NCBI RefSeq assembly: GCF_000417875.1
Contig: NW_006920896.1
Coordinates: 151,307 to 182,352 of the forward strand
Source of the DNA: Pseudozyma flocculosa PF-1
Lineage: Eukaryota > Basidiomycota > Ustilaginomycetes > Ustilaginales > Ustilaginaceae
Length of the DNA stretch: 31,046 nucleotides
Reading direction: 5' to 3'
Below, in pieces: positions 1,121-5,429 of this stretch (the stretch's first letter is position 1; every line of letters begins with the position of its first letter). Made by a program: the position numbers and the translations under genes. The notes under the pieces were generated by a model. It saw only the letters and a list, made by a program, of their open reading frames with translations, did not search any database and was not told where the DNA came from.

Positions 1121-1144
1121 ATGCCGCCATGCCGCCCGCCATAG
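1121..1144 (+). promoter_or_regulatory. Eight-codon uORF overlapping the ALG3-GAA1 start
   Basis: An ATG at 1121 opens a 7-residue frame (MPPCRPP) that stops at 1142-1144. The proposed main ATG at 1129 lies inside it in another frame. The uORF ATG has a pyrimidine at -3 (T), while the main ATG has a purine (G) at -3, so leaky scanning to the main start is plausible. It could lower translation of the large membrane protein. Whether the transcript includes 1121 is unknown. Confidence 0.4.
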
Positions 1145-4100
1145 CACACTCGCCGACGTCGTCGAGACCCTCGACCGGCAGCGCCGGCCAAATGACCGCC
1201 AGGCGCATCGCCACCGACCTCGTCCGCCTCGTCGACACCGTGCTCCTCAGACAAGCCGGCTATCTCGTCCTCGTGCCCGCCCTCGTCCTCGTCGAGATCG
1301 CCCTCTGCGTCGCCACCATCCGCAAGGTCCCCTTCACCGAAATCGACTTCCAGACCTACGTCCAGCAGGCAAACCTCTTCCTCGATGGCCAGACAAACTA
1401 CGCCTACCTCGACCCTCCCGGCGGCAGCGGGCCCTGCGTCTACCCGGCAGGCCACATCTACCTCTTCTCCGCCTTCTCCTACCTCACCCGCAGCGGCCAG
1501 GATCTGCTCCCCGCCCAGGCCGTCTTTGGCGCCTTCATGATCCTCACCTTCTTTGCCATCGCCGCCCTCTACCGCGCCGCCGCCGCGCCCCCGCTCCTTC
1601 TCATCCCGCTCGTCCTGACAAAGCGCATCCACTCCGTCTTCCTCCTGCGCATGTTCAACGACCCGCTCGCCCTTTTCCTCGCCTACGCATCCTTTGTCGT
1701 CGCACAGCGAAACGCCTGGAGGTCTGCCTCGCTCGTCTTCAGCCTCGCCCTCAGCATAAAGATGAACGTCCTCCTCTTCCTCCCCGCCTTTGCCGCCGCT
1801 CTCTTCCTCTTTGCCGGCTTCGTCGGCCTGCTTCAGGGCCTCGCCCTCATCCTCGCCGCCCAGGTCGCCCTCGCTTGGCCCTTTATCGCCCACGACCCCG
1901 CCAGCTACCTCGCCTACGCCTTCAACCTCTCGCGCCAGTTCGAGTACCGCTGGACGGTCAACTGGCGATTCGTCGACGAGGACACCTTCCTCTCCCGCCC
2001 CTTCTCGCTCGCCCTACTCGGCGTCCACCTGTCGCTGCTCGTCGGCTTTGGCCTCTTTCGCTGGACCGGCCTGGGCCGCAAGCCCTTTTCCTGGCTCAAG
2101 AGGCGGTGGAGCAAGACGGCCGACGACGGGCGCATGTCGCAGGATCAAGGTACGTCTCGTCGTCGTCGCGGTGGCAGTGGCGGTGGCAGTGGCAGTGGTT
2201 CGAGATGCAGAGTCGATCGGACCGAAGCCCTGCCATCGTGGACGGGTGGCCGCATGAGGCCGCGGTGCGGAGACTTAGATGGCTCAGCTCACATACCGAC
2301 GCCCCCTCTCATTGTCCCAACCCGCCATTGTCCCCTTTTGTCCCGGCCCGCCCCCTCTGGCCGCGCGCGTCCGCACGCCTCCCTGCGGTCTCCCGTCTCC
2401 CGCAGCCCGCGATCTGCTGCTGTTGCTCTTCACCGCAAATCTCGTCGGCATCGTCTGCTCGAGAAGCCTCCACTACCAGTTCTACTCGTGGTACTTTCAC
2501 CAGATCCCCTTTTTGCTCTGGCAGGCCAACCTCCCGCTGCCCATCAAGTGAGTACCCGCCAGCTGCCTCGCTCTAGCACCAGCACCCGTCGATCATCGCC
2601 ACTTTGGCCTCGCTGACGCCGCTCGCCCGCCCGCCGCCCGCTCGGCCGCCCTCTGACCGAACCCAGATTCGTGCTTCCAGCAGCCATCGAGTGGTCCTGG
2701 AACGTCTTCCCATCCACCAACGCATCCTCTGGCGTCCTCCTCGCATCCCACCTCATCATGCTCGCCGGTCTCTGGACGTCTCGAAGCTACGGGCCGGACA
2801 CGCAGCTCTCGATCGCCAGCGATGGACACGACGCCGAGACCAAGGTGCGTCCCGCCACCGTTGCGGGCAACCAGGACGTCGAAGATGACCTCGAGGTCGA
2901 GCGCCTCGTCACCGGCAAGCCCCGAGCGCCGACCGCAGAGGTCGACCCAGCGACGAAGACGACTGAGCCCGAGGCACCGGCAGAAGATCTGAGCGAGGAC
3001 GGCGAAGAGGACGACGACGTCGTCGACGAGGAAGACGCCCTGATCAAGACCTTCCGGAAGCGCATCGCCGTGCGCAAAAAGGTCGTCGGAGCCATCGGAC
3101 GGGCCATGCCGACGATCCGACGCCTGCTGGTGGTGGCGGCGCTGGCGCTGCTCTTCGTCATACCAGACCCGCACTCTCCGCTGTCAAAGGGGGTCTACGT
3201 GGATGAGAACGCGCTCCAGCCGGGCCAGGCCCAGGTCTACTGGGACTACTTCGACGTCACCTACGCCGACATGGTGTCGGAAAAGGTGGATCGCATTGGC
3301 CGCTTCGGCGACCGCGCCGCCCGCGCCGAGCTCATCCGCTCCGAGCTGGCCTCGTACGGCCTCCAAGCGCATCTGCAGAACTACAGCTATCCCGCCGTCC
3401 TTGTCGCGCCCGCAGGCGAGGATCCCGAGGCGCGCACGGGCACCAACGTCTACGCGCGCTCGCCCTCGCCCCGCATCGACGGGAGGGAGGCCATCATCAT
3501 CTCGGCCAGCTGGCGATCGAGGTGGCGCGGTCAGAACGACCCTTTCTCCGAGCCGGATGCTGCCGCCCAGGCCGTCGACCGGGGCCTTGCGCCGCGCAGG
3601 ATCAATGTCCGCGGCATTGCCAGCCTGCTCGTGCTGGCGCGCTACCTCTCGACGCAAAACTTCCTAAGCAAGGACCTGATCTTTGTCGTGAGCGACGGCT
3701 ACCTCGAAGGCATCAACGCCTGGTCCTCGGCCTACTTTGACGGCCGGCCCGGTGGCGCGATGGAGCAGGGCGACAGAGACACCGCCGCCTTTGCGCCGAT
3801 ACACGACGGCGGGTCGCAGGTATGGAACGCCCTGTCGCTCGACTACCCGTCCGACTCGTTTTCCAAGCTGGCACTGCTCTACGAGGGCATCGATGGCCAG
3901 CTGCCCAACATGGACAGCCTCAACACGCTGCTCAAGATCGCCGAGAGGGTGGGCGACGGCGTGCCCGTGTCCTTGTACGGAGAGGTCGAAAGCTTCGAGG
4001 CGGCGGGCGCGTCCAAGCAGTCGTGGCTGAAGCCGTTGCTCGATCTGATCGGCATGGGCTGGGTCGAGACGAGGATGTACGAGGACGGCCTCCGCGCCGC

Positions 4101-5429
4101 GCTGCATCAGATGCGGCATGGTGCCACCGGTCAGACGACGGGCGCCCACGGCGTGTTCCAACGGTGAGTAGCAGCGGTGCAGCGGCGGGCATACCAAGCG
4201 TTCGTGCCCCTCTCTGACTTTCATCTTGCGCCTGCCTCGCCTCGCCCCGCCCTTTGTAGGCACCACATCGATGCCTTCACCGTGTTTGCCGTGCCGGCGC
4301 GCGGGCCGTACGGCTTCTACCACCTCGGACGCATCGTCGAGTCGTACGTGCGCTCGATGTCGAACCTGCTGGAGCGGCTGCACCACTCGCAGTTCCTCTA
4401 CCTGCTCGTCTCGTCTCGCCGCTTCGTGCCGATCGGCGTGGCCATCCTGGTGCCGCTGCTGCTGTCGATCTCGATGACGCTGTCCGGCCTGGCGGCGTGG
4501 TACCGCGAGGAGGAGCGCAGCTTGGAGAGGAAGAGGGCGTGGAGGTCGCGCGTCGGCCTCGATGCGGCCAGCGTCGAGGGCGTCGACGCCGACGCCGACG
4601 TCGACATGGAGGAGCCGTCCGAGTGGCAGACGCGCGGGCGGTGCGCCACGCTGTGGATCAAGCACGGCAAGGCGGCGGGCGGACTCGCCGTCAAGGAGAT
4701 CGAGGCTGAGGTCGAGCGGCTGCAGCAGACGGGGCGACCTTGGAAGGCTGCAGTTGCGCTCCTCGTCGCTGCCATATCGAGCGGCGCGCTGGTGCTGGCG
4801 CAGCTGCGCCGGTCCGACATCGAGCTCGGTGGTCTGGTGAGTGTACGCTGGGCATCGTCTCCGTCGAAAAACCCTGTTGCTCTCACGGCGGTCCTCTGAC
4901 GGCCGCTATACCGCCTTCCCTCTCACCGTCTCCCTCTGCGCGGTTCATCCAGTCCGGCAACACCCGCATCGCCGTCCTGGCTGCGACTCTCTTCATGCCC
5001 GCGCCGCTGGCCGCGCTGGTCAAGTACCGGTCACACTGCGCCGCCGACCAGCTGCGGCCGCTGCTCCGCACCGTCACGCTGCTCTACAGCGGCATGACGA
5101 TTGCGGTGCTGGCGACGGTTAACGTGTCGCTCGCCACGTTTCTTGCCCTCGTCCTGGTGGTGCTCCACGCCCCGCTGCCCTCTGCGCTCATGGCGTGGGC
5201 GCTGTCGTGGGCGCTCAACCCGCTCGTGATCCCGCTGCTGGTCGGCGCCGTCGACGCAGCGGGCCAGGTGACGGCGCCCCTCGAGACGGCCCTCTACGAC
5301 TGGAGGGTCACGCGCAGCCGGACGGTGGATACGTGGGCCCTCATCTGGTGGCCCGTCGCCGTCATCCGGGCCATCGAGGCCGCGCTGGCGCTCGCCTCGT
5401 CGTCGTCGGCGGCGGCGGCGTCGTTGTGA
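1129..5429 (+). CDS. ALG3-GAA1: ALG3-GAA1 fused reading frame (Dol-P-Man alpha-1,3-mannosyltransferase + GPI transamidase subunit)
   Basis: Five exons fit at 1129-2149, 2406-2547, 2667-4163, 4260-4836 and 4953-5429. Introns begin GTACGT or GTGAGT and end in AG. Phases match at each join, giving 1,237 residues. The N-terminal part (about 1-447) is a full ALG3 and the C-terminal part (about 516-1237) a full GAA1. Exon 3 runs from the ALG3 C-terminus through an acidic linker into GAA1 with no stop codon, so the sequence shows one bifunctional frame. ALG3 has no stop of its own. The only possible internal GAA1 starts are the ATG codons at 2758, inside ALG3, and at 3106, after the basic stretch that normally precedes the GAA1 membrane anchor. 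An in-frame ATG at 1021 is an alternative start. A GTGCGT at 2845 could serve as a donor and separate the halves by alternative splicing. Confidence 0.8.
2150..2405 (+). other. Intron 1 of ALG3-GAA1
   Basis: Donor CAAG|GTACGT and acceptor CCCGCAG. Splicing joins a phase-1 codon (G + CC) and links the ALG3 exon ending at 2149 to the conserved segment starting ARDLLLLLF. The intron contains a GGCAGT/GGCGGT repeat near 2169-2195. Confidence 0.8.
2548..2666 (+). other. Intron 2 of ALG3-GAA1
   Basis: Donor ATCAA|GTGAGT and acceptor ACCCAG. The phase-2 join restores PLPIKFVLP, a conserved ALG3 segment. Without splicing the frame would end at 2549-2551. Confidence 0.85.
4164..4259 (+). other. Intron 3 of ALG3-GAA1
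   Basis: Donor CAACG|GTGAGT and acceptor TTTGTAG. The phase-2 join (CG + G) produces FQRHHIDAFTVFAVP, a conserved GAA1 segment. Read-through would meet TGA at 4165. Confidence 0.85.
4837..4952 (+). other. Intron 4 of ALG3-GAA1
   Basis: Donor GGTCTG|GTGAGT and acceptor TTCATCCAG, phase 0. It joins IELGGL to SGNTRIAVL and keeps the C-terminal membrane helices of GAA1 in frame to the TGA at 5427-5429. Confidence 0.75.

Follow-up and report, generated by a model that had tools for sequence, protein, structure and literature searches.

Alg13 and Alg14 are partners of one enzyme. Fusions of these two proteins in the N-glycan pathway are already in print (PMC4973528), and they resemble the protein described here in being likewise a fusion of glycosylation proteins. 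Here we describe a gene of Pseudozyma (Anthracocystis) flocculosa PF-1 that joins ALG3 and GAA1, which, unlike Alg13 and Alg14, come from two different pathways. The gene occupies positions 1129-5429 on the forward strand of a 31,046-nucleotide (nt) stretch of DNA (contig NW_006920896.1, positions 151,307 to 182,352; hereafter the window, in whose coordinates all features are given), and we put at roughly 0.85 the probability that it encodes a single membrane protein of the endoplasmic reticulum (ER) with complete ALG3 and GAA1 modules. The N-terminal half would be ALG3, the dolichyl-phosphate-mannose (Dol-P-Man)-dependent alpha-1,3-mannosyltransferase producing Man6GlcNAc2-PP-dolichol, and the C-terminal half would be GAA1, the M28-like subunit of the glycosylphosphatidylinositol (GPI) transamidase. 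Compared with separate ALG3 proteins (GT58; yeast ALG3, PDB 9s6r), the fusion runs past the last membrane helix into a linker and GAA1; compared with separate GAA1/GPAA1 (PDB 7w72, 7wld, 8imx, 8imy, 9ub7), the fused GAA1 has no free N-terminus, since ALG3 and an acidic linker come before it. The two families themselves are well known. An earlier interpretation of the window, made from its letters (the sequence-only reading), had proposed the fusion and knew of no description of it; none was found in the open-licence PMC literature, among the matches listed, and the available portions of PMC6881057, PMC12244721 and PMC4973528 make no mention of an ALG3 fusion.

That ALG3 and GAA1 share one reading frame, the central proposal of that reading, is upheld by the DNA (a single open frame, with the joint in a single exon), by copy number (one locus per family), by 21 further two-domain database entries, by congruent trees in each of which the fused proteins form one clade, and by complete domains and the predicted structure of a relative. 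The five exons join in phase, as had been claimed, and the spliced product of 1129-5429, 1237 amino acids followed by a stop codon, is identical over all 1237 residues to the database protein PFL1_06651. Exon 1 (1129-2149) encodes the N-terminus and the larger part of the ALG3 (GT58) module, with its invariant TEID motif, and exon 2 (2406-2547) encodes the SRSLHYQFYSWYFHQ region of ALG3. Exon 3 (2667-4163) begins with the C-terminal segment of ALG3, comprising the WNVFPST..SS signature and the last hydrophobic stretch (2667-2778), continues through a spacer without a stop codon, in which an acidic linker with the motif EVERLV is followed by a basic zone (2779-3105), and closes with the first membrane helix of GAA1, the sequence YVDENALQP and a large part of the lumenal M28-like domain (3106-4163; the fold is taken from the model of a relative, P0003). 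GAA1 continues in exon 4 (4260-4836), and exon 5 (4953-5429) carries its C-terminal hydrophobic segments and the stop codon. All four introns (2150-2405, 2548-2666, 4164-4259 and 4837-4952; 256, 119, 96 and 116 nt) have GT-AG borders. The reading frame of exon 3 is uninterrupted from 2617 to 4167, so the claim that this exon joins the end of ALG3 to the start of GAA1 without a stop holds at the DNA level. At the 5' end of the gene, a seven-codon upstream open reading frame (MPPCRPP, 1121-1144, forward strand) starts 8 nt upstream of the main ATG, which it overlaps in a different frame.

When 327-nt stretches with the composition of nearby noncoding DNA were simulated (20,000 runs), a given frame stayed open in about 13% of them, and an open frame in a single genome is therefore weak evidence by itself. 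The linker has a guanine-plus-cytosine (GC) content of 0.74/0.45/0.81 at codon positions 1/2/3, a coding-type periodicity; the corresponding values are 0.54-0.66/0.45-0.51/0.78-0.89 in the flanking coding parts, and those of intron 1 (0.78/0.62/0.65) and intron 2 (0.65/0.82/0.69) are unlike the linker. This periodicity, together with the 21 further two-domain proteins that have the same domain order, confirms that the open frame across the joint exceeds chance. At E <= 0.001 the 33-contig assembly (23.0 Mb) yielded no second copy of ALG3 or Gaa1; only the exons of 1129-5429 match either family.

The landmarks of both proteins proved intact, as had been asserted. Pfam PF05208 (ALG3) matches residues 51-409 at 430.7 bits against a cut-off of 23.6, covering profile positions 2-358 of 358, and PF04114 (Gaa1) matches residues 645-1216 at 249.5 bits against a cut-off of 28.6, covering positions 1-494 of 497; both profiles are thus essentially full length. 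The TEID aspartate, D73, which we take to be the likely catalytic residue of ALG3, is invariant in the alignment of all 22 fusions; the solved yeast ALG3 chain has N there. The ALG3 half agrees with solved ALG3 in a fold test, and the N-terminal membrane helix, M28-like domain and C-terminal membrane helices of GAA1 are all present. Structure prediction was made on P0003, with a predicted template modelling score (pTM) of 0.66; a simple hydropathy scan gave fewer membrane segments than this model and was not used. Both halves are predicted to be active, each most likely functioning like its separate relatives, and the fused GAA1 half would assemble into GPI transamidase. The families of the GPI transamidase partners GPI8, GPI16, GPI17 and GAB1 are present in the genome.

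The fusion is shared by other smut fungi. A whole-protein search with length limits admitting about 680-2160 amino acids, which like the other two protein searches confined its scoring to the roughly 8000 candidates with most shared words, returned 37 matches, and 22 of these (P. flocculosa and 21 others) carry PF05208 and PF04114 in the same order. Looking for single proteins that match both families had been proposed as a check, and these 22 are its outcome. The species named for 13 of these 22 are P. flocculosa, Thecaphora frezii, Sporisorium reilianum, S. scitamineum, S. graminicola, Ustilago trichophora, U. loliicola, Kalmanozyma brasiliensis, Pseudozyma hubeiensis, Melanopsichium pennsylvanicum, Moesziomyces aphidis, Testicularia cyperi and Violaceomyces palustris. 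By taxonomy, P. flocculosa and Testicularia belong to the Ustilaginales, Thecaphora to the Urocystidales and Violaceomyces to the Violaceomycetales; the fourth order of Ustilaginomycetes, the Uleiellales, is absent from the named fusions. The remaining 15 of the 37 matches are GAA1 proteins lacking an ALG3 domain, and the named ones come from Malassezia, Tilletia, Parajaminaea and Sympodiomycopsis (Malasseziomycetes and Exobasidiomycetes).

Separate proteins were sought with each half. An ALG3-only query, whose length limits leave the fusions outside, gave 725 matches, and the best 120 include separate ALG3 proteins of Malassezia, Tilletia, Jaminaea, Meira, Tilletiaria and many other fungi. 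The GAA1-only query gave 101 matches, 21 of them fusions, the longest fusion (P0020) lying beyond its length limit. No complete standalone ALG3 or GAA1 of a named Ustilaginomycete occurs in the best 120 of 725 ALG3 matches or among the 101 GAA1 matches. One candidate for a standalone smut ALG3, P0038 (414 amino acids, 58% identical), was rejected and is read as a truncated model, because it ends exactly at the boundary of exon 2 with intron 2 (...LPLLLK), is missing the C-terminal segment of ALG3 (profile positions 2-336 of 358) and sits inside the fused clade. The closest relatives of each half are the ALG3 and GAA1 of Malassezia and Exobasidiomycetes; there they are two separate proteins, encoded in several species on contigs that differ in recorded size, and the GAA1 often has a long N-terminal tail.

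Phylogenetic trees were built for each half; both were quick trees without bootstrap, and some rows, including the Thecaphora GAA1, were flagged as long branches. The GAA1 tree comprised 55 rows, 21 of the 22 fused proteins (P0022, whose GAA1 half is cut, was omitted) and 34 of 81 others. Its fused rows form one side of a branch with a Shimodaira-Hasegawa-like approximate likelihood ratio test (SH-aLRT) value of 99, and they adjoin a 13-row group (98) in which all named rows are Malassezia. In the ALG3 tree (50 rows, the 22 fused and 28 of 120 others) the fused rows and P0038 cluster at 90, adjoining Malassezia at 86. Violaceomyces is the earliest branch among the fused rows in both. These topologies fit a single fusion, the most likely history, in an ancestor of the Ustilaginomycetes sampled, with vertical inheritance thereafter, and the fusion is likely a shared derived character, with the proviso that trees alone do not separate gain from loss of the fusion. 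Within the fused rows of the GAA1 tree, P. flocculosa groups at 99 with Thecaphora of the Urocystidales (P0001, P0002) and not with the rest of the Ustilaginales; the Thecaphora branch is long in that tree, and the placement is not resolved by the ALG3 tree.

The spacer between the last ALG3 signature and YVDENALQP measures 126-172 residues in the fusions (median 146.5). In standalone proteins the median length is 35 residues for the ALG3 tail (114/120) and 73.5 for the GAA1 head (72/81, some heads being plainly truncated models); given these lengths, neither gene seems shortened, and two whole genes appear joined end to end. The acidic start of the spacer contains the motif E[VI][DE]xL[LV] in 20 of the 22 fusions (EVERLV in P. 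flocculosa), and a basic zone with 8-13 K/R and 1-7 D/E per 30 residues closes it just before the first GAA1 membrane helix. ALG3 and the GAA1 part 565-967 have mean pairwise identities of 0.66 and 0.71, against 0.33 in the linker and 0.60 in the basic zone (19 of 22 rows; P0016, P0017 and P0022, incomplete or merged, were left out). The low value for the linker suggests that much of it may be merely spacer. In the model of P0003, residues 407-451 are predicted to be disordered, with a predicted local distance difference test (pLDDT) score below 50, and residues 451-519 form one helix (block pLDDT 69-97) that continues into the GAA1 membrane helix; the conserved motif and this long helix leave room for a docking role that the tether may have. 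By the positive-inside rule, a basic stretch beside a membrane helix marks the cytosolic side. The tether should accordingly lie in the cytosol, which agrees with the orientation earlier expected for the joint.

Three other accounts of these data were weighed against a single transcript yielding an uncleaved chain, which is what we infer. A single chain might be translated and then cut by a cytosolic protease in the disordered acidic linker, so that working ALG3 and GAA1 are separate and the fusion couples only their synthesis. The partial disorder and low identity of the spacer would suit this, and its conserved motif might serve for recognition no less than for docking; the GAA1-proximal part is, however, predicted as one helix running into the membrane helix, there is no direct evidence for cleavage (protease sites were not searched for), and we regard this account as improbable. 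We consider it more improbable still that the gene makes two messages, one unspliced at the joint and encoding the fusion and the other spliced from a donor at 2845 into an ALG3-only isoform ending at 2990. The sequence-only reading had named a splice giving ALG3 its own stop as a refuting event, and a candidate does exist: the donor (AAG|GTGCGT) is good, acceptors at 2938, 2950 and 2983 all reach the stop at 2990 (464, 460 and 449 amino acids), and the resulting introns of 94-139 nt are similar in size to three of the four model introns. A CTNAY/TTNAY branch point is missing from each of these three candidates, however, whereas every model intron has at least one (in intron 1 the branch-point-like sequences lie about 100 nt from the acceptor), and pyrimidine content before the acceptor is 0.40-0.50 in the candidates versus 0.60-0.80 in the model introns. 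Furthermore, the spliced-out stretch contains the conserved EVERLV motif, and most of the 22 rows are gapped in the alignment columns where the donor falls, so the donor cannot represent a shared mechanism.

The least probable account is an artefact of annotation or assembly, in which separate genes were merged through a lost stop codon or a skipped intergenic stretch. Merged-looking models do occur, among them a GAA1 of Malassezia sp. CBS 17886 with WD40 families, a Ustilago loliicola model that includes PF05236 and, in three Malassezia, models combining GAA1 with a methyltransferase. The joint described here nevertheless lies inside one exon with coding periodicity and is common to 22 proteins, in which the linker motif and basic zone are conserved and complete separate copies from named Ustilaginomycetes are missing from the matches examined; a local assembly error, raised earlier as a possible refutation, is very unlikely given the same joint in other species. 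Additionally, 12 of the 22 fusions lack a Met anywhere from the ALG3 anchor to YVDENALQP, and therefore a complete GAA1 cannot start at an internal AUG in those proteins. A separate GAA1 started within the spacer is thus ruled out as a general mechanism, with the Mets of P. flocculosa at 2758 and 3106 remaining compatible with it.

Several observations count against a single fused protein. Those two Mets permit internal initiation in P. flocculosa, the donor at 2845 could end ALG3 at 2990, and an open frame of this length is not rare by chance. The linker is poorly conserved, the pTM of the P0003 model is only 0.66, and the ALG3 tree, quick and without bootstrap, supports the clade at only 90 and its join to Malassezia at 86. 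Ustilago maydis was not among the matches by name in the whole-protein search. Finally, the 21 other fusions are known as predicted proteins only, in some of which a predicted intron could hide a stop; DNA-level evidence for the joint comes from one genome, and a viral_contigs scan for relatives' DNA gave 75 pattern matches, 0 of them confirmed.

On the favored interpretation of one fused protein, two whole co-oriented genes would have been joined end to end, turning the old ALG3 tail and the old GAA1 head into the spacer. As modelled in the relative, this would be a flexible acidic tether followed by a long helix entering the first GAA1 membrane helix, and most likely a passive tether of two working modules. 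ALG3 and GAA1 would then be held at 1:1 dosage and in a shared location, as suggested earlier, with an ALG3 physically bound to each GPI transamidase. A doubtful but conceivable extension is that ALG3 of Ustilaginomycetes is a fixed sixth part of GPI transamidase, that the motif-bearing, helical cytosolic tether anchors the complex next to the site where lipid-linked oligosaccharides are assembled, that N-glycan supply and GPI anchoring are controlled as one unit, and that alg3 is essential in the class.

The fusion would bring two universal ER pathways together on a single polypeptide across at least three orders of one fungal class, and offers a natural experiment on whether tethering is tolerated by, or benefits, the GPI transamidase and the enzymes of lipid-linked oligosaccharide synthesis. 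Whole-gene deletion aimed at one function would probably remove the other as well. Removal of alg3 is usually tolerated in fungi; removal of the whole gene is predicted to be lethal in these fungi because GAA1 is lost too, and glycan engineering in smut yeasts should therefore inactivate the ALG3 half only.

The GPI transamidase partner families are encoded on other contigs, as are other families of lumenal glycosyltransferases, and the fusion is thus not part of a cluster of such genes. No second glycosylation fusion was seen at the ALG6/8 gene, where a 1503-residue open frame has the Alg6_Alg8 family only (Pfam). Tail to tail with the fusion gene is an ERCC1/Rad10 homologue (5909-7414, reverse strand), and frames of the TPR, SNO (PDX2-type), CBF/NF-Y, PIP5K and IF-2 families follow farther along the window.

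Several databases name the fused proteins simply ALG3. The same name is attached to GAA1 proteins without an ALG3 domain from Malassezia and one Tilletia horrida (P0030, P0031, P0033, P0164, P0170, P0176), probably copied from the fused smut relatives. Three of the Malassezia GAA1 models (P0033, P0170, P0176) extend into a class I methyltransferase, through merging of neighbours or another fusion. ALG3 and GAA1 lie on contigs of equal recorded size in Tilletiaria anomala (P0070, P0175; 293613) and Malassezia cuniculi (P0126, P0033; 1748598) and may be linked there; the contig sizes differ in M. yamatoensis, Sympodiomycopsis, Parajaminaea and Tilletia maclaganii. Two proteins labelled as from the fern Adiantum nelumboides, P0050 and P0173, group with Exobasidiomycetes (Meira; Ceraceosorus) and probably represent fungal contamination of that assembly.

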